Positions 16,860-26,287 of a stretch of DNA of 37,371 bases are shown here, piece by piece. Position numbers and translations under genes: made by a program. How positions within the stretch are numbered: position 1 is the first letter of the stretch; every line of letters begins with the position of its first letter. The DNA comes from Planctomycetota bacterium. Its GTDB lineage: Bacteria; Planctomycetota; UBA1135. The stretch spans positions 1 to 37,371 of the forward strand of contig JALUVI010000153.1 in assembly GCA_027020785.1 (NCBI GenBank), given 5' to 3'. The notes beneath the pieces are model-generated. The model saw only the letters and a program-made list of their open reading frames with translations. It did not search any database and had not been told where the DNA came from.

Positions 16860-18149
16860 ATGTGGGAACAGATTCGATCCAACCGGACCCGCAGCTTCCT
16901 GGTCGTCACCGGGATGGCGGTCCTGCTCGGAGTGGTCGGCGCCGCGCTCGGGCTGCTGTTCGGCGGCGAGGGCGGCACGTGGATCGGTGTAGCCGCTGCA
17001 CTGGCCGTCTGGCTCGCCCTCTGGGCGACCTCGGTCTCGCGCGGCGACGACCTGATGCTGCGCATCGCCGGCGCCCAGGAAGTGAGCCGGTCGGACTTCC
17101 CCATGCTGCACAACGTGGTCGAGGAGATGGCGATCGCGGCCGCGCTGCCCGTCAAGCCCCGGGTGTTCGTGATCGAGGACGATGCGCCGAACGCCTTCGC
17201 CACCGGTCTGCGGCCGGACAAGGCCGCGGTCACGGTGACCACGGGTCTCCTCCGTCGGTTGGATCGCGACGAGCTCCAGGGCGTGGTCGCGCACGAGATC
17301 GGGCACGTGCGCAACCGTGACGTCGCCCTGATGGTGACCGCCGGCGTCATGCTCGGTTCGGTCGCCCTGCTGGCGGCGGTGGGGAGGCGCGCCTTGTGGT
17401 GGGGCGGGGGAAGGGTGCGCTCCCGCTCCGGCGGCGACGGGGCGCCGCAGGCCGCCGCCGTCGCCCTGGCCCTGCTGGTGGTCGTCCTGGCGCCGATCTT
17501 CGCCCAGCTCCTCTACTTCGCCTTGTCGAGGCGACGGGAGTACCTCGCCGACGCCTGCGGGGCCGCCTACACGCGCTATCCGGAGGGTCTGGCCCGCGCC
17601 CTCGAGAAGATCTCCGGCGTCCGAGTGCCTGCGCGCTCCGTGGACCCCGTGACCGCCCCCATGTACATCGTGCCGCCGCTGCCGCCGGGGGCGATGGCCG
17701 CCCGCGGCGCCCGCCGTCCGGCCTGGTTCTCGACCCACCCCCCGGTGGAGGAGCGCGTCCGCATCCTGCGCAGCATGGCGGGAGCCGGCATCGCCGACTA
17801 CGCCGCCGCCTTCGAGCGGGTGCGGGGCCGGCGCCTGGTGCGCCACGCCGAGGCCCCGGGCCCGGGGCTGCCGGCCCACGCCTCCGCCGTGGCCCCTGCG
17901 GCCGCGCCTCCTGGAGCCCCCGGTCCGGCCGAACGGGCCCGCGCCGCGAGCGATGCCCTCCTCAGGGCCCGTGGCTACCGCTTGGTCCAGTGCCCGGCCT
18001 GCGGGGCGGTGAACAAGCTGCCGCCCCCGCTCGCCGGGACCGTGGTCCACTGCCTGCGCTGCGGCGAGCGGCTGCCGGGGGGGCATGGCGGCCCCGGCTC
18101 GGAAACTGGGTGCGAAGATTGTTCTACTCCTCCTCGCCATTCCGTGTAA
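16860..18149 (+). CDS. M48 family (HtpX-like) membrane zinc metalloprotease with C-terminal zinc ribbon
   Basis: VVAHEIGHVRNRD, SRRREYLADACGAAYT, TM segments; C-terminal CPACGAVNKLPPPLAGTVVHCLRCG. Confidence 0.92.
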   Translation: MWEQIRSNRTRSFLVVTGMAVLLGVVGAALGLLFGGEGGTWIGVAAALAVWLALWATSVSRGDDLMLRIAGAQEVSRSDFPMLHNVVEEMAIAAALPVKPRVFVIEDDAPNAFATGLRPDKAAVTVTTGLLRRLDRDELQGVVAHEIGHVRNRDVALMVTAGVMLGSVALLAAVGRRALWWGGGRVRSRSGGDGAPQAAAVALALLVVVLAPIFAQLLYFALSRRREYLADACGAAYTRYPEGLARALEKISGVRVPARSVDPVTAPMYIVPPLPPGAMAARGARRPAWFSTHPPVEERVRILRSMAGAGIADYAAAFERVRGRRLVRHAEAPGPGLPAHASAVAPAAAPPGAPGPAERARAASDALLRARGYRLVQCPACGAVNKLPPPLAGTVVHCLRCGERLPGGHGGPGSETGCEDCSTPPRHSV

Positions 18150-18277
18150 GACATTGACTGGCAGGAGGTTGCGGCGTTTTTGCCGCCCGGGCGAGCCCGG
18201 CTCCGTTCCCGGCCTCATGCCCCCCGGTGCGGGGGACTTGAGTCGAATCCAGCACATCCTGGACACCCAGTTTCCGC

Positions 18278-18283
18278 TATACT
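18278..18283 (+). promoter_or_regulatory. -10 element (TATACT) of the trp operon promoter
   Basis: TATACT located 6 nt upstream of the leader-peptide GTG; no convincing -35 at standard spacing. Confidence 0.55.
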
Positions 18284-18289
18284 TCGCTC

Positions 18290-18361
18290 GTGCACCGCTT
18301 CCATGCGTGGTCGTGGCCCGACGGGCCCGGGGTCTTCCCGGGCGCCGGGGTCGCTGGTTGA
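18290..18361 (+). CDS. trpL: Candidate trp operon leader peptide (V/M)HRFHAWSWPDGPGVFPGAGVAG
   Basis: 23-codon GTG...TGA ORF with two Trp codons (18308-18310, 18314-18316) between the -10 and a strong terminator hairpin just upstream of trpE. Confidence 0.7.
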   Translation: MHRFHAWSWPDGPGVFPGAGVAG

Positions 18362-18382
18362 CCTCGCCGCCCCTGGAAGCCC

Positions 18383-18420
18383 GCGGGCCCCGGTTTCCCA
18401 CCGGGGCCCGCTTCCTTTTT
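18383..18420 (+). terminator. Intrinsic terminator/attenuator upstream of trpE
   Basis: Perfect 11-bp stem GCGGGCCCCGG (18383-18393) / CCGGGGCCCGC (18401-18411), 7-nt loop TTTCCCA, then TTCCTTTTT; trpE starts about 10 nt later. Confidence 0.82.
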
Positions 18421-18429
18421 CGGCCCGGA

Positions 18430-19989
18430 ATGCCGATGAGAACCCACTCCCCGATGCCCCCGCCCGCCCAACGCCCGATCGTCCTCGAGCGGTCGCGTCC
18501 CGAGGACGCGGACCACCACGGCCTCGTGTGGATGGTCCTCCCGGCCGACTTCCTGACCCCGGTGACGGCGTTCCTGCGGCTCCGAGCGGGAGGGCGTGAG
18601 CCCGGACTGTTGGAGTCCGCCGAGGGGCCGGAGCGGCTGGCCCGCCACTCGTTCCTGCCGTGCGACCCCGATGCCCGCCTCCTCGCCGACGAGGACGGTC
18701 GGGTCCAGGTCGAGGGAGTGCCGGGAGCCGACGGCGCCACGGAGGGGCCGCTCCTGGCCCGTCTCGTTGCGCTCGCCGCGCCTCGCGTCGCCGCTCCGCC
18801 GCCCGGCCTGCCGCCCTTCCTCGGGGGTTGGGTCGGGGCCCTCTCCTACACGTGGGCCGGAGAGCTCGAACCGCGCGTCGCAGCGGCCGCCCGCGCTGCC
18901 GGGCAGCGCCCGAGCGGCGAACCCATGGCCGACTTCCGGCGCTATCCGACCGTGGTCGCCTTCGACCACGCGGCACAGCGTCTCTACCTGGTGCGCCGCT
19001 GCCCCGAGGGCGGGACCGGGTTCCAGGACGCCATGACTCGGCTCGAGGGCATCGCCGAAGACCTCGCCCAGCCGGCTCCGCCGAGCTCCGCCTTCGAGGT
19101 CGGCTCTCTCGAACCCCGGAGCTCGCTCGACCGCGCCGGCTACGTCGCCGGGGTCGAGGCGCTGGCCGAGGCCATCCGCCAGGGCGAGGTCTTCCAGGCC
19201 GTGCTGGCGCGGCGCTTGGAGTGGGACTTCGTCGGAGATCCGTTCACGCTCTACCGCATGCTGCGTCTGACCAACCCGGCGCCGCACATGTTCTACTTCT
19301 CGTCCGGCGGCCGGACCCTGGTCGGTTCCTCGCCCGAGCGGCTGGTCTCGGTGACCGGACGCCGTGTCCAGAACCGGCCCATCGCCGGGACCCGCCCACG
19401 CCACGCCGTCGAGGCCGAGGACCGGCGGCTCGGCGCCGAGCTCCTGGCCGACGCCAAGGAACGCGCCGAGCACGACATGCTGGTGGACCTCGCCCGCAAC
19501 GACCTCGGCCGCATCGCCCGCACCGGCACGGTCGAGGTCGTGGAGCGCGCCGTCCTCGAGCGCTTCGCCCGCGTCCAGCACCTGGTGAGTCGGGTCGAGT
19601 GCGACCTCGCCGCGCCCTTCGGACCGCTGGACGCCCTGGCCGCCGCCTTCCCCGCTGGCACCGTGTCGGGGGCGCCCAAGGTCCGCGCCATGGAATTGCT
19701 CGCCGCCCTCGAGCCGGTCGCCCGCGGTGCCTACGCCGGCGCCTTCGGCTACCTCGACGACTACGGCAACCTGGACACCGCCATCGTGCTGCGCACCTTC
19801 GTCGCCAACCATGACGCACCCTCACCGGACGGGGGAAGGCACGAGGTCCGCGGCACGGTGGCCATCGGCGCCGGCGCCGGCATCGTCCACGATTCGCGCC
19901 CCGAGGCCGAGTTCCTCGAGACCGAGCACAAGGCGCGCGCCGTCGCCGAGGCCCTGGAGCTCGCTGCGCGCGAGGGAGACCTGCGATGA
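18430..19989 (+). CDS. trpE: Anthranilate synthase component I
   Basis: LLESAEGPERLARHSFL, GEVFQAVLARRLEW, FYFSSGGRTLVGSSPERLV, RPIAGTRPR, DMLVDLARNDLGRIARTGTVEV, GTVSGAPKVRAMELL, YAGAFGYLDDYGNLDTAI. The ORF-track start (18085) overruns the leader; ATG 18430 is the likely start. Confidence 0.95.
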   Translation: MPMRTHSPMPPPAQRPIVLERSRPEDADHHGLVWMVLPADFLTPVTAFLRLRAGGREPGLLESAEGPERLARHSFLPCDPDARLLADEDGRVQVEGVPGADGATEGPLLARLVALAAPRVAAPPPGLPPFLGGWVGALSYTWAGELEPRVAAAARAAGQRPSGEPMADFRRYPTVVAFDHAAQRLYLVRRCPEGGTGFQDAMTRLEGIAEDLAQPAPPSSAFEVGSLEPRSSLDRAGYVAGVEALAEAIRQGEVFQAVLARRLEWDFVGDPFTLYRMLRLTNPAPHMFYFSSGGRTLVGSSPERLVSVTGRRVQNRPIAGTRPRHAVEAEDRRLGAELLADAKERAEHDMLVDLARNDLGRIARTGTVEVVERAVLERFARVQHLVSRVECDLAAPFGPLDALAAAFPAGTVSGAPKVRAMELLAALEPVARGAYAGAFGYLDDYGNLDTAIVLRTFVANHDAPSPDGGRHEVRGTVAIGAGAGIVHDSRPEAEFLETEHKARAVAEALELAAREGDLR

Positions 19990-20573
19990 TCCTCCTGCTC
20001 GACAACTACGACTCCTTCACCTGGAACCTCTACCAGGCACTGGCGGCGCGCGGCGCCGAGGTCGAGGTGGTCCGCAACGACGCCTGCAGCGTGGACGAGC
20101 TGCTCGCCGTCGGCCCGGTCGCGGTCGTCTCCTCGCCGGGGCCGGGGCGCCCCGAGGACGCCGGCGTCCTGCCGGAGCTGATCGCCCGCATCCCCGACGA
20201 GCTGCCGTTCCTCGGCGTGTGCCTCGGCCACCAGGCCCTGGTCCAGCACCACGGCGGACGCCTGGTCGTGGACGACGTTCCGGTCCACGGCAAGGCCTCG
20301 CTGGTCCATCACGAGGGTGCTCCTCTGTTCGCGGGTCTGCCTGAGCCCTTCCCCGCCGGCCGCTACCACTCGTTGCGGGCCGAACGCGAGAGCCTGCCCA
20401 CCATTCTGGAGCTCACCGCCTGGACCGAGGACGGCATCGTGATGGGGGTGAAGCACCGCGAGCGCCCGCACTGGGGCGTGCAGTTCCACCCCGAGTCCAT
20501 CCTCACCCCCCAGGGCGAGCGCCTGCTCGCCAACTTCCTCGACCTCGCCGGGCTGCCGGCGCCGCTTCCGTGA
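19986..20573 (+). CDS. trpG: Anthranilate synthase component II (glutamine amidotransferase)
   Basis: LLLDNYDSFTWNLYQ, SSPGPGRPEDAGV, FLGVCLGHQAL, WGVQFHPESILT; ATGA overlap with trpE. Confidence 0.96.
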   Translation: MILLLDNYDSFTWNLYQALAARGAEVEVVRNDACSVDELLAVGPVAVVSSPGPGRPEDAGVLPELIARIPDELPFLGVCLGHQALVQHHGGRLVVDDVPVHGKASLVHHEGAPLFAGLPEPFPAGRYHSLRAERESLPTILELTAWTEDGIVMGVKHRERPHWGVQFHPESILTPQGERLLANFLDLAGLPAPLP

Positions 20574-21628
20574 ACGTCGCCGAGGCCCTGGACCGCGTCC
20601 GCGGCGGCGGCGTCCTGACCCGCGACGCATCGCGGGCGCTGTTCGCCGCCGTGCTGGCCGACCCCGGCGACGAGGAACTCCTGGGCGACCTCCTCACCGC
20701 CCTCGCCGCCCGCGGTGAGACCGCCGCCGAGATCCTCGGCGCCGCCGAGGCGATGCGGGGGGCGATGGTGCCCTTCCACGCCGCATCCGCGGCCGATGCC
20801 GTGGACACCTGCGGCACCGGCGGTGACGGCCTCGGCAGCTTCAACCTCTCGACCGCGGCCGCCCTGGTCGTGGCGGCCTGCGGCGTGCCCGTGGTCAAGC
20901 ACGGCAACCGCGCCGCGTCGTCGCGCTGCGGCAGCGCCGACCTCCTCGAGGCCGCAGGCGTGCGCCTCGCCCTGACCCCCGAAGCCGCCGCCGAAGTCCT
21001 CGAGCGCTGCGGCTTCGTCTTCCTCTTCGCCCCGGCCTTCCATCCCGCGCTCGGCCGCCTGGCCCCCCTGCGCCGCCGGCTCGGGGTGCGGACCATCTTC
21101 AACTTCCTGGGTCCCCTGTGCAATCCGGCGGGGGTGCGTCGGCAGCTCCTCGGTGTCTCGGCCGCCGACCGCCTCGACGACTACGCCGCCGTCCTCGCGG
21201 AGCTCGGCGTCTCCGCCGCTGCGGCGGTCCACGGCGCGGGCGGCGCCGACGAGCTGACCCTCGAGGGGCCCGCCGAAGTGCGTTGGGTCCTCCCCGGCGG
21301 AGTGACCGCCGAGCGCCTGGACGCCGGCGCCCTCGGGCTCGACGCCGCGCCGAACGCCGCGCTCCGCGGCGGCGACGCCGCGACCAACCTCGCGTTGCTT
21401 CGCTCCGTGCTCGACGGCGAGCCGGGACCGCTGCGCGACGCGGTGCTCCTGAACGCGGCGGCGGCCCTGGCCGTGGCCGGTTGTGGGACGACCCCCCCGG
21501 GGTCGGATCGGATCGCGTCCGAGCTGCAGCGCGCCGGCGAGGCCGTGGACTCGGGCCGCGCCGCCGCCGTCCTCGAGGAACTCGTTGCGGCGACCCGGGA
21601 GGTCGCGGCAGGAGGGAGCGCCCGATGA
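20570..21628 (+). CDS. trpD: Anthranilate phosphoribosyltransferase
   Basis: DTCGTGGDGLGSFNLSTAAALVVAACGVPVVKHGNRAASSRCGSADLLEA, GVRTIFNFLGPLCNPAG; GTG start overlapping trpG. Confidence 0.96.
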   Translation: MNVAEALDRVRGGGVLTRDASRALFAAVLADPGDEELLGDLLTALAARGETAAEILGAAEAMRGAMVPFHAASAADAVDTCGTGGDGLGSFNLSTAAALVVAACGVPVVKHGNRAASSRCGSADLLEAAGVRLALTPEAAAEVLERCGFVFLFAPAFHPALGRLAPLRRRLGVRTIFNFLGPLCNPAGVRRQLLGVSAADRLDDYAAVLAELGVSAAAAVHGAGGADELTLEGPAEVRWVLPGGVTAERLDAGALGLDAAPNAALRGGDAATNLALLRSVLDGEPGPLRDAVLLNAAAALAVAGCGTTPPGSDRIASELQRAGEAVDSGRAAAVLEELVAATREVAAGGSAR

Positions 21629-23034
21629 GCGCGCCGGTCCTGCCCGGACGTCTCGGCCCGATCGTCCGCGACGTCGCCCGCCGCGCCGCGGCCCGCCGCG
21701 CCGAGTCTCCGCTCGCTGCGCTGCGTCGCGAAGTGCGTCCCGAACCCGCCCGGCGCCAGCGCTTCCTCGACGCTCTCCTCGCCGGCCCGGGCCCGGGCGT
21801 GATCGCCGAGTGCAAGCGGCGTTCGCCCTCCGCCGGAGACCTCGCTCCCGGAGTGGACCTCGCAGAACGCGCTGCCGCCTACGCCCGCGGCGGGGCTTCC
21901 AGCCTCTCGGTGCTGACCGAGGAAGACCACTTCGCCGGTTCTCTCGCCGACCTCCGCGCCGTGGGCACCACGCTGCCGCGCTTGCGCAAGGACTTCCTCC
22001 TCGACGAGGGCATGGTCCTGGAATCGGCCGCGGCCGGCGCCGACGCCGTGCTGCTCCTCGCCTGCGTGCTCGACGACGCCCGCCTCGCCGAGCTCCGCGC
22101 CCTCGCGGGCGAGCTGGGGCTCGCCGTCCTGCTCGAGGTCCACGACGAGGCCGAGCTCGACCGCGCCCTGGCCGTCTCGCCCGACCTGCTCGGGGTCAAC
22201 GCCCGCGACCTGACGACCTTCCGCGTCGACCCAGAACGAGCCGCCGAGTTGCTGGCCCGGGTCCCGGACGCCGTCCCCGCGGTCGCCGAGAGCGGCATCC
22301 GCTCCGCCGCCGACGTCCGACGCGCCGCCGCCGCGGGGGCCCGTGCCGTCCTGGTCGGCGAGACCCTGATGCGCGCGCCGCGGCCCGACGCCGTGCTTCG
22401 CGGCTGGCGCTCACAGTTCGCGCCGCCGCGCACCAAGGTCTGCGGCCTGACGCGCGAGCAGGACGTCGCCGCCGCCGTCGCCGCCGGCGCCGACGCCGTC
22501 GGTTTGGTGTTCGCCCCCGCCTCGCCGCGCGTCGTCACCCCCACGCGGGGCGCGGCGCTCGCTGCGGTCGCCTCCGACGCGTTGGTGGTCGGCGTCTTCG
22601 CCGGGGTCACCCGCGGCGAGGCCGAGCGCATCGCCGCCGAGGTCGGCCTGCACGCGGTCCAGCTCTGCGGCGACGAACGACCCGCGGACTTCGCCGACTT
22701 CCCCCTGCCGGTGTGGCGTCGCCTCCCCGTGGACGCCGTCACCGGGCCGCGCGAGGCCGCGGCGTGGCGCGACGTCGCGGCCCTGTTCGTGCTCGACCAT
22801 CCCGCCGCCGCCGGGGGGACCGGCCGCCGCGTCGAGCTCGAGGTCGCCGCCCGCCTCGCCGCCGACCTCCCCTGCCTGCTGGCCGGGGGCCTCGACGCTG
22901 CGGCCCTTCCCGCAGCGGCCGCCGCGGGAGCGCTGGGCTTCGACGCCTCCTCCGCCCTCGAGTCCGCTCCCGGGCGCAAGGACCCGGAGCGGGTCCGCGC
23001 CTTCGTCCGAACCGCCCATGAGCTCCTCGCCTGA
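21625..23034 (+). CDS. trpCF: Fused indole-3-glycerol-phosphate synthase / phosphoribosylanthranilate isomerase
   Basis: TrpC half: VIAECKRRSPSAGDL, LSVLTEEDHFAGS, LRKDFLLDEGM, LLGVNARDLTTF, AESGIRSAADV. TrpF half: TKVCGLTREQDV, ADAVGLVFAPASPRVV, HAVQLCGDE, LAGGLDAAALPAA, GFDASSALESAPGRKD. Same uninterrupted frame; ATG at 21625 overlaps trpD. Confidence 0.95.
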   Translation: MSAPVLPGRLGPIVRDVARRAAARRAESPLAALRREVRPEPARRQRFLDALLAGPGPGVIAECKRRSPSAGDLAPGVDLAERAAAYARGGASSLSVLTEEDHFAGSLADLRAVGTTLPRLRKDFLLDEGMVLESAAAGADAVLLLACVLDDARLAELRALAGELGLAVLLEVHDEAELDRALAVSPDLLGVNARDLTTFRVDPERAAELLARVPDAVPAVAESGIRSAADVRRAAAAGARAVLVGETLMRAPRPDAVLRGWRSQFAPPRTKVCGLTREQDVAAAVAAGADAVGLVFAPASPRVVTPTRGAALAAVASDALVVGVFAGVTRGEAERIAAEVGLHAVQLCGDERPADFADFPLPVWRRLPVDAVTGPREAAAWRDVAALFVLDHPAAAGGTGRRVELEVAARLAADLPCLLAGGLDAAALPAAAAAGALGFDASSALESAPGRKDPERVRAFVRTAHELLA

Positions 23035-24247
23035 CCCCGTCTTCCTCCACGACGCACCCGGCCCGGGTTGGTTCGGGCCTTGGGGCGGGCGCTTCGCCCC
23101 CGAGACGTTGGTCGCGAACCTCGAGGAGCTGGAAGCTGCGTGGCACGACTTCCGCAGCGACCCGGCGGCGCGCGAGGAGTGGGACGCCGTCCTGCGCGAC
23201 TTCGCCGGCCGGCCCACTCCGCTGTTCCCGGCGCGTCGGCTCGGCGCCGAACTCGGCGTGGAGCTCTGGCTCAAGCGCGAGGACCTGCTCCACACCGGCG
23301 CGCACAAGCTCAACAACGCGCTCGGCCAGGCGCTGATCGCGCGCCGCATGGGCAAGACCCGCATCCTCGCCGAGACCGGCGCCGGCCAGCACGGCGTCGC
23401 CACGGCGACCGCATGCGCCCTGCTGGGTTTGGAATGCGTGGTCTACATGGGCGCGGTGGACGCCGCGCGCCAGGCGCCGAACGTCGAGCGCATGGAGCTC
23501 CTCGGCGCGCGCATCGAACTGGTCGAGGATGGCCAGACCACGCTCAAGGATGCGGTCAACGCCGCCCTGCGCGCCTGGGTCGGCGACCCCGAGGCGCACT
23601 ACCTGCTCGGCAGCGCCCTCGGTCCGCATCCCTTCCCGACCATCGTCGCCGGTCTGCAGGAGGTCATCGGCCGCGAGGCCCGCGCCCAGGTCCTCGACCA
23701 GGCGGGCGCCCTCCCGGACCTCGCCGTCGCTTGCGTCGGCGGCGGCTCCAACGCCATCGGGCTGTTCCGCGGCTTCCTCGACGACCCGGTGGAACTGGTC
23801 GGCGTCGAAGCCGGCGGCACCGGGACCTCGCCGGGCCTCCACGCCGCCCGCTTCTCCGGCGAGGGCGGCGCTCCGGGCGTACTGCACGGCTGCCACACCC
23901 GAGTGTTGCAGGACGCGGCCGGACAGGTGCTGCCGACGCACAGCATCAGCGCCGGGCTCGACTACCCCGCGGTCGGGCCCGAGCACGCCGAGCTCGCCCG
24001 CACCGGGCGCGCCCGCTACGTCGCCGCTGGGGACGACGAAGCCCTGGACGCCTTCCTGCGGCTGACCCGCACCGAGGGCATCCTGCCGGCGCTCGAGAGC
24101 TCCCACGCCCTGGCCTGGGTGCTGCGGGAGCGCACCGCGGGCCGTCTGGCCGACGGCCTGCGCATCGTCGTCAACCTTTCCGGCCGCGGCGACAAGGACC
24201 TCCACACCGTGCTCGCGCGGCTGCGCCGCGGGGAGGAGGAGTCGTGA
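23018..24247 (+). CDS. trpB: Tryptophan synthase beta chain
   Basis: FGPWGGRFAPETL, LKREDLLHTGAHKLNNALGQALIARRMGKTRILAETGAGQHGVATATACALLGLECVVYMG, CVGGGSNAIGLF, HSISAGLDYPAVGPEH, NLSGRGDKDLHTV. Confidence 0.98.
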   Translation: MSSSPDPVFLHDAPGPGWFGPWGGRFAPETLVANLEELEAAWHDFRSDPAAREEWDAVLRDFAGRPTPLFPARRLGAELGVELWLKREDLLHTGAHKLNNALGQALIARRMGKTRILAETGAGQHGVATATACALLGLECVVYMGAVDAARQAPNVERMELLGARIELVEDGQTTLKDAVNAALRAWVGDPEAHYLLGSALGPHPFPTIVAGLQEVIGREARAQVLDQAGALPDLAVACVGGGSNAIGLFRGFLDDPVELVGVEAGGTGTSPGLHAARFSGEGGAPGVLHGCHTRVLQDAAGQVLPTHSISAGLDYPAVGPEHAELARTGRARYVAAGDDEALDAFLRLTRTEGILPALESSHALAWVLRERTAGRLADGLRIVVNLSGRGDKDLHTVLARLRRGEEES

Positions 24248-25023
24248 GCCGCTTCGCCTCCGGCCTGCGCGGTCTCGCCCCCTTCGTGATGGCGGGAGAC
24301 GGCGGCCTCGACCTCCTGCCCGACCTGCTCCACGGGCTCGAGGCGGAAGGCGTCGCCGCGGTCGAAGTCGGCCTGCCCTTTGGCGACCCCATCGCCGACG
24401 GTCCCGAACTGCAGGCCGCGGCCGCGCGCGCGCTCGCCGCCGGCGCCGACCTGGACGGCGTCCTCGCCCGCGTCGCCGCCTACCGCGCGGCCGGCGGCGG
24501 TCTCCCGCTGGCGCTCATGTCGTACCTGAACCCGCTGTTGCGCCCCGGCTTCGCCGCCGCCTGTCGCGCCGCGCGTGATGCGGGCTGCGACGCCCTGGTG
24601 ATCCCCGACGCGCCGCTGGACGCGGCCCCCTCGCTGACCACGACTGCGGCGGAAGCAGGGCTCGGCGTCGTCGGCTTCGTCGCTCCGACCACGCCGCCTT
24701 CGCGCGCCGCTGCCGTGACGCTCGCCAGCACCGCCTTCGTCTACGTGGTCGGTCGGGTCGGGGTGACGGGTGCGGCGACCCGACTCGACGGCGACCTCGA
24801 CGCCCTGCTCGCGGCGGTCCGCTCCGCAGCACGGGTCCCCGTGGCCCTCGGATTCGGGTTGCGGGACGCGAGCACCGTCGCCGCTGCCCTGGAGCGCGCC
24901 GACCTCGCCATCGTCGGCTCGGCGCTGGTCCAGCACGTGCACCACGCCGCCGAGGCCGGCGGGGACCGGGTAGCCTCGGCGCGCTCCTTCGTCCGCTCCC
25001 TCCTCGCTCCCACCCGACGATGA
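24244..25023 (+). CDS. trpA: Tryptophan synthase alpha chain
   Basis: FVMAGDGGLDLL, AVEVGLPFGDPIADGPELQAAAARAL, LMSYLNPLL, GCDALVIPDAPLDA, GFVAPTTP, GFGLRDAS; GTG start overlapping trpB stop. Confidence 0.94.
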   Translation: MSRFASGLRGLAPFVMAGDGGLDLLPDLLHGLEAEGVAAVEVGLPFGDPIADGPELQAAAARALAAGADLDGVLARVAAYRAAGGGLPLALMSYLNPLLRPGFAAACRAARDAGCDALVIPDAPLDAAPSLTTTAAEAGLGVVGFVAPTTPPSRAAAVTLASTAFVYVVGRVGVTGAATRLDGDLDALLAAVRSAARVPVALGFGLRDASTVAAALERADLAIVGSALVQHVHHAAEAGGDRVASARSFVRSLLAPTRR

Positions 25024-25253
25024 CCGACCTCCCCGAACGCGTCCAGCTGCGCCGACTCGACCTCGCCCTCCTCGCCCTGGTCGAGGAGCGCGCCCGCATC
25101 CGCGCCGCCCTGCCCGCCGCCGACCCCGCGCGTCGCGCCGCGGTGGGGGACCTCCTGCGGCGCCACTGCGGCGACCTTCCGACCGAGTCGGTGGAGCGTC
25201 TCTTCCGCCTCCTCGACGACGCCTGCGACGCAGCGGAGGAGGGGGTGTCGTGA
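25020..25253 (+). CDS. Small AroQ/chorismate-mutase-like helical protein (possibly degenerate)
   Basis: 77 aa; RVQLRRLDLALLALVEERARI...ESVERLFRLLDDACDAAEE aligns by eye to AroQ helices; ATGA overlap with trpA and overlap with the downstream DAHP synthase. Confidence 0.6.
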   Translation: MTDLPERVQLRRLDLALLALVEERARIRAALPAADPARRAAVGDLLRRHCGDLPTESVERLFRLLDDACDAAEEGVS

Positions 25254-26287
25254 TCGTCCGCTTCACCCCCTCGGCGGTCGCGCACGCGGTCCAGGAGGTC
25301 GTTGCCGAGCTCGAGCGCTCCGGCGCCCGGGTCTGGCGCTCCACCGAATCGGCCCGCCCCATCGTGGCCTCGGCCGGCGGTGGGGGCGACGACCTCGCCG
25401 CCGCCCTGGCCGACCGCCCCGAGGTCGAGGAGGTGGTCGCGCCGCCCGGGGGGCTTCGCCTCGCGGCCCGCGCCTTCCGCGAATCGCCGACCCGGGTCCG
25501 CGTCGGGCGCGGCCCGGGCGCCGTCGTCATCGGCGGCCCCGAGGTCCCGGTCATCGCCGGTCCCTGTTCGGTGGAGGGGCGCGACTTCATGACCGAGGTC
25601 GCCGCCGCCGTGGCCGCCGGAGGAGCGCGCATCCTCCGCGGCGGCGCGTTCAAGCCGCGTACTTCGCCCTACTCCTTCCAGGGCTTCGGCGTGGAGGGGC
25701 TGGCGCAGCTGGTCGAGGCCGGCCGCGCCCACGGTCTGCCGGTCTGCGCCGAGATCATGGACGCGGCCCACCTGCCCGCCTTCCTCGATCACGACGTGGA
25801 CCTGCTCCAGGTCGGCGCGCGCAACTCCCAGAACTTCACCCTGCTCAAGGCGATCGCCGCGGCCGGGCGTCCGGTCCTCTTGAAGCGTGGCCTGGCGATG
25901 ACCCTCGACGAGTGGCTGCAGTCGGCCGAGTACCTGATGGCCCACGGCTGCGACCAGGTGGTGCTGTGCGAGCGCGGCATCCGCACCTTCGAGACCGCGA
26001 CACGCAACACCCTCGACCTCACCGTCCTGCCGGTGCTCCGCGAGCGCACGCACCTCCCGGTGGTGGTGGACCCTGCGCACGCGGTGGGCATCGCTCGCTT
26101 CATCCCGCCGCTGGCCCGCGCCGCCGTGGCCTGCGGCGCCGACGGCCTCACGGTGGAAGTGCATCCCCGGCCCGAGCAGGCGCGGAGCGACGGCCCGCAG
26201 GCGCTCCTGCCGGCGGAGCTGGCGAGCCTGGTCGCCGAGACCCGCATCCTGGCCGCCCTGACCCCGCGGGCGGGGAGGAGCGGATGA
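25250..26287 (+). CDS. aroF: 3-deoxy-7-phosphoheptulonate (DAHP) synthase, class I beta
   Basis: VIAGPCSVEGRDFM, ILRGGAFKPRTSPYSFQGFGVEGL, LLQVGARNSQNFTLLKA, VLLKRGLAMTLDEWLQSAEYL, VVVDPAHAVG; N-terminal ferredoxin-like domain as in Thermotoga/Pyrococcus-type enzymes. Confidence 0.92.
   Translation: MIVRFTPSAVAHAVQEVVAELERSGARVWRSTESARPIVASAGGGGDDLAAALADRPEVEEVVAPPGGLRLAARAFRESPTRVRVGRGPGAVVIGGPEVPVIAGPCSVEGRDFMTEVAAAVAAGGARILRGGAFKPRTSPYSFQGFGVEGLAQLVEAGRAHGLPVCAEIMDAAHLPAFLDHDVDLLQVGARNSQNFTLLKAIAAAGRPVLLKRGLAMTLDEWLQSAEYLMAHGCDQVVLCERGIRTFETATRNTLDLTVLPVLRERTHLPVVVDPAHAVGIARFIPPLARAAVACGADGLTVEVHPRPEQARSDGPQALLPAELASLVAETRILAALTPRAGRSG

Follow-up and report, generated by a model that had tools for sequence, protein, structure and literature searches.

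We find a leader upstream of trpE in a member of the Planctomycetota that is very likely a ribosome-mediated transcription attenuator sensing charged tRNA-Trp. It combines an intrinsic terminator with a short ORF whose Trp codons are clustered, and the segment just 3' of the Trp codons covaries with the 5' arm of that terminator across related loci. The element lies near the middle of the analyzed stretch of 37,371 nucleotides (hereafter the window), and all features are on the forward strand unless otherwise stated.

The trp Cluster and Its Leader

The source assembly is of high GC content, 91% complete, and spread over 270 contigs, and the nearest relatives of its TrpE are nearly all Planctomycetota. 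Pfam matches give the gene order trpE-G-D-C/F-B, then a DAHP synthase. The first structural gene, trpE (18430-19989; Anth_synt_I_N and Chorismate_bind), starts at the ATG at 18430, with alternative starts at 18436 and 18454; as the earlier sequence-only reading had pointed out, the ORF list over-extends it to 18085. It is followed by trpG, the glutamine amidotransferase subunit (19986-20573; PF00117), trpD (20570-21628; PF00591 and PF02885), an over-long ORF carrying fused trpC-trpF in one frame (21118-23034; PF00218 and PF00697), whose true start lies inside it, and trpB (23018-24247; PF00291). The frame ending at 25023, after trpB, is probably trpA, judging from its translation, and the DAHP synthase gene (25250-26287; PF00793) ends the cluster. 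A gene for an M48 peptidase (16860-18149) lies upstream on the same strand. While the trp cluster is full, the source genome has no match to HisG or prephenate dehydratase and only a marginal, partial match to IlvB, possibly reflecting auxotrophies or assembly gaps.

The leader ORF has 23 codons (VHRFHAWSWPDGPGVFPGAGVAG), from a GTG at 18290 to a TGA at 18359-18361, and contains two Trp codons (18308-18310 and 18314-18316) in the run TGG TCG TGG (18308-18316); the ORF and its two Trp codons had been described in the sequence-only reading. Two Trp codons in a single short ORF are weak evidence taken alone. Between the ORF and trpE lies an intrinsic terminator, in which a 5' arm (segment C, 18383-18394) pairs with a 3' arm (segment D, 18400-18411) around the loop TTCCC, with a calculated energy of -28.0 kcal/mol, followed by the U-rich tract TTCCTTTTT (18412-18420). 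A perfect hairpin with a U-rich tail had been noticed at 18383-18420; it is present there, although its stem has 12 pairs rather than the 11 first counted. Compared with its dinucleotide shuffles, the region 18270-18425 has a fold that is better by 3.3 s.d.

Conservation of the Leader Upstream of trpE

We compared the DNA upstream of trpE at 39 loci that encode the same type of TrpE, nearly all from Planctomycetota, scoring as Trp leaders those ORFs that do not exceed 60 codons and hold two or more Trp within five codons, against dinucleotide shuffles. Such an ORF precedes trpE at 32 of the 39 loci (2.3 expected), and 23 loci have at least three Trp in five codons (0.06 expected), numbers to be read with the close kinship among the loci in mind, which makes some tests less independent than they suggest. 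The position and Trp content of the leader are thus kept in relatives, with two to four clustered Trp codons in the 32 leaders. Examples are MAQASPFWWWRNRPEGFPGAGSRYS (L037), MTTRSQRWWWWLGPGDAPVAG (L039), MTNQTWRWRKQHGPGSFLGAAVLC (L013), and MNLASLSWLWRWWPEGPGCSPGAPARAS (L064), and the leader of Saltatorellus ferox Poly30 (L057) contains GGSWSWRWWPKGPGC; the source leader has only two Trp codons and a GTG start. Outside the Trp codons, the peptide sequence differs widely among leaders.

In 31 of the 32 leaders, the stop codon is followed after 20-54 nt by a long hairpin whose tail contains T; the exception, L043, has no terminator by the search rule used, though a long hairpin is visible. The comparison with relatives, which the sequence-only reading had offered as its own test, thus came out in its favor.

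The remaining seven loci (L035, L041, L049, L050, L055, L058, L062) have no Trp leader, and an Rfam scan of six of them gave no family match. At L041, a strong U-tailed hairpin (GGAGCCATCTCC...GGAGGTGGCTCC) is kept without a Trp ORF. Placed on the TrpE tree, presence or absence of the leader needs three changes, which would fit one gain followed by a few losses.

Predicted Leaderless Transcripts

The sequence-only reading had missed a predicted -10 box, TATACT (18278-18283), 6 nt 5' of the leader GTG. The same arrangement recurs among relatives: in 26 of the 32 cases, 6-10 nt separate the end of a TANNNT hexamer from an in-frame start codon of the leader (ATG or GTG). Such a placement is expected in 6.2 cases, and the highest count in 20,000 simulations was 12. 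The consensus of these boxes is TAN(A/G)(C/G/A)T, and 17 of the 26 lie 6 or 7 nt from the start codon. A box so close to the start codon leads us to predict that the leader transcripts are leaderless. The source leader, which has no clear -35 box, is likely to be transcribed from 18290 or its immediate vicinity, and translation of its peptide very probably starts with the first base of the message.

A Predicted Antiterminator Supported by Covariation

The stretch folded for each leader began either at the first Trp codon or at the edge of a ribosome stalled there, and extended to the end of the terminator 5' arm. The same type of long hairpin appears across leaders, in which a segment just 3' of the Trp codons (segment A) closes on C around inner helices, making C common to terminator and antiterminator. 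In the source, segment A is GGGCCCGGGG (18323-18332), and its core GGGCCCG (18323-18329) pairs with CGGGCCC (18384-18390) in the conserved helix. The inner helices, 18334-18353 with 18359-18379 in the fold of 18321-18394, span the leader stop codon and are also predicted in other leaders. Counting whichever of the two folds is better, all 31 foldable leaders form at least five A:C pairs, and the mean is ten. A CCTCC-like pyrimidine run also recurs 3' of the leader stop and before the terminator (for example in L032, L034, and L061), and joins in inner-helix pairing in some folds.

Each A matches its own C better than the C of other species. The summed duplex energy of A with its own C is -530 kcal/mol, against -434 kcal/mol (s.d. 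13.5) with swapped C segments, and none of 20,000 permutations was as low; the result also holds with 25 non-redundant leaders. When the A window is moved downstream, the pairing weakens from -17.0 to -7.4 kcal/mol. On a MAFFT alignment of 19 leaders, built without regard to structure, 90.1% of the cells of the A:C helix are paired, compared with 24-62% for versions slid along the alignment. Compensatory changes occur at four of the seven pairs, and both percent paired and covariation exceed those of all shuffles (0 of 500). For example, GGGCCCG/CGGGCCC in the source corresponds to GGACCCG/CGGGTCC in L034, GAGCCCGCTGG/CCAGCGGGCTC in L036, GCCCGCGATG/CATCGCGGGC in L047, and GGCCCTTTGT/ACAAAGGGCC in L046. 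The terminator puts constraints on C and D and none on A, so that covariation between A and C speaks specifically for the antiterminator.

The sequence-only reading had placed the antiterminator elsewhere, in an 8-mer, CCGGGGTC, that occurs twice in the leader. Each copy can indeed pair fully with GGCCCCGG (18386-18393) in the terminator arm, but the conserved pairing is that of 18323-18329 with 18384-18390, and the only fold in which the first copy pairs with the arm is the one that places the stall at the second Trp codon. The proposal that stalling masks the first copy and frees the second is not supported, the second copy being inside an inner helix in the antiterminator fold. We also do not claim a protector hairpin within the ORF (18326-18331 with 18337-18342): it is plausible by eye and forms in short nascent folds, but it is weak on the alignment, with 76% of cells paired and a compensated-pair count matched by 98 of 500 shuffles.

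For folds in the presence of a ribosome, we took the codon in the A site to be the start of about 13 covered nt, counted from its first base. When the ribosome is held at the first Trp codon, A is free, and nascent-RNA folds contain ten A:C pairs from the moment the RNA end reaches 18390 until D is complete. At that point the terminator becomes somewhat more stable than the antiterminator (-65.3 vs. -60.4 kcal/mol), so that antitermination must be kinetic. If the second Trp codon is the stall site, part of A is covered and the pairing shifts to 18327-18335 with 18385-18393, which takes in the first copy of the 8-mer. With the ribosome at the stop codon, A:C cannot form in the folds, and C:D does.

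His Leaders in the Same Family

Each of the four hisG genes that we found in the family of the source is preceded by a His-rich leader ORF and a terminator. These lie between about 200 and 60 nt upstream of hisG, on the forward strand in L142 and on the reverse strand in L143, L144, and L145, and the leader sequences are MPVRAHLHHHH..., MQSHRHHHHL..., MTNRVHHHAVHAHFH..., and MSNAKQRFHHHHHL.... Each leader stands behind a TANNNT box 6-9 nt upstream, and the terminators are of a GCCGGC type with a T-tract. In three of these few loci, folding again joins the terminator arm to the sequence 3' of the His codons. The hisG leaders are likely to represent a his attenuator of the same design as the trp leader. 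By the same criteria, we detected no His leader at 30 other hisG loci of the phylum, nor in L141, which belongs to the same order. No attenuator was detected by these criteria upstream of leuA, ilvB, or pheA in relatives, where many of the gene matches were below the family cut-offs.

Proposed Mechanism and Alternative Explanations

Ribosome-mediated trp attenuation, the mechanism put forward by the sequence-only reading, is the best explanation of the joint conservation of ORF and terminator and of the A:C covariation. Transcription would begin at or near the leader GTG, as the -10 box suggests, and a ribosome could load on the leaderless message directly behind the RNA polymerase. When charged tRNA-Trp is scarce, this ribosome would stall at the Trp codons (18308-18316), and A (18323-18332) would pair with C (18384-18390), around 18334-18353/18359-18379, once C is made; the terminator would then come too late, and trpE would be transcribed. 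When Trp is plentiful, the ribosome would reach the stop codon (18359-18361) and cover or disrupt A and the inner helices. With A blocked, C would pair with D (18400-18411), forming the intrinsic terminator.

The leader ORF could instead act mainly on translation or RNA stability, whether by translational attenuation, by reinitiation, or in trans through its peptide or an sRNA, as known from Sinorhizobium, with the hairpin being secondary. Extra roles of this kind are possible, since in S. meliloti the trp attenuator gives rise to a functional sRNA and peptide (PMC7298713). We nevertheless consider such a primary role improbable here: transcription attenuation calls for just such a U-tailed terminator, with a 5' arm that covaries with the segment after the Trp codons; the roughly 70 nt between the leader stop and trpE are a long distance for simple reinitiation; and the peptide varies widely outside the Trp codons.

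An RNA that senses Trp independently of translation, such as a T-box, a TRAP-like site, or a riboswitch, would also be in keeping with a region that folds better than its shuffles. However, the clustered in-frame Trp codons, as well as the His codons before hisG, need a ribosome, and no covariance model of Rfam 15, the T-box and the proteobacterial trp leader included, matched at the gathering score in the window or in 14 related loci, making such a sensor very improbable. Hardly credible is an ordinary terminator of the M48 peptidase gene next to a chance ORF: although this gene is on the same strand and short ORFs are common in DNA of 70% GC, the hairpin is about 235 nt past the gene and adjoins trpE, the same layout recurs with His codons before hisG, and both the 32 of 39 loci (against 2.3 expected) and the swap test speak against chance.

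Relation to Known Attenuators

Attenuation by a leader ribosome is a textbook mechanism. In Escherichia coli, the short leader ORF trpL contains tandem Trp codons, charged tRNA-Trp is the signal, and RNA lying ahead of the stalled ribosome forms a helix with the 5' arm of an intrinsic terminator located before trpE. The planctomycete element shares this logic of leader ORF, antiterminator, and terminator, but it has no Rfam match, is predicted to be leaderless, has a longer nested antiterminator and a much higher GC content, and belongs to another phylum.

Leaderless trp leaders are likewise known, in Sinorhizobium and Streptomyces. The leader transcript of S. meliloti trpLE(G) starts with its own start codon and continues into a terminator and trpE (PMC7298713). 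It therefore resembles the planctomycete arrangement in having a Trp-containing leader ORF, a leaderless message (predicted in our case), a terminator, and trpE; it differs in belonging to an Alphaproteobacterium, with a 14-aa leader and a trpE(G) fusion, whereas the planctomycete trpE and trpG are separate. Streptomyces lividans trpL1 (MFAHSTRNWWWTAHPAAH) is a leaderless WWW leader with hairpins and a U-rich stretch before trpE and a TAnnnT -10 box (PMC8079986). It is similar to the WWW leaders found in the planctomycete relatives, but comes from an Actinobacterium in which trpE is monocistronic, whereas the planctomycete leader precedes a whole trp cluster.

What seems undescribed is the phylum, the leader sequence family, and the pairing of trp with his. 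In their 2010 survey, Naville and Gautheret noted that leader-peptide systems had been shown only in Proteobacteria and Actinobacteria before their own bacillus His case (PMC2965389). A statistical survey by Korolev et al. reports an excess of short leader genes near structural genes in Planctomycetes, in passages that name no trp attenuator for them (PMC4833913). We found no description of a trp or his attenuator from Planctomycetota in open-access full text, although the broad survey of Lopatovskaya et al. (2010), cited by Korolev et al., could contain one. We give even chances to a broader proposal: that one planctomycete lineage uses trp and his attenuation on leaderless leaders, of an origin separate from the proteobacterial and actinobacterial systems, with a long nested antiterminator whose outer strand begins where a ribosome halted on the first Trp codon has its leading edge.

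Planctomycetota have unusual internal membranes and a condensed nucleoid. A family of trp and his attenuators in this phylum would imply tight transcription-translation coupling there, and it makes such coupling testable by a simple reporter. It would also support leaderless leaders as a recurrent design, and the 32 natural leader variants can be used for modeling.

Two records carry a TrpE of the planctomycete clade under other names, one of Byssovorax sp. (L053), which has a leader, and one of Myxococcales (L062); they may be misnamed bins or cases of gene transfer.
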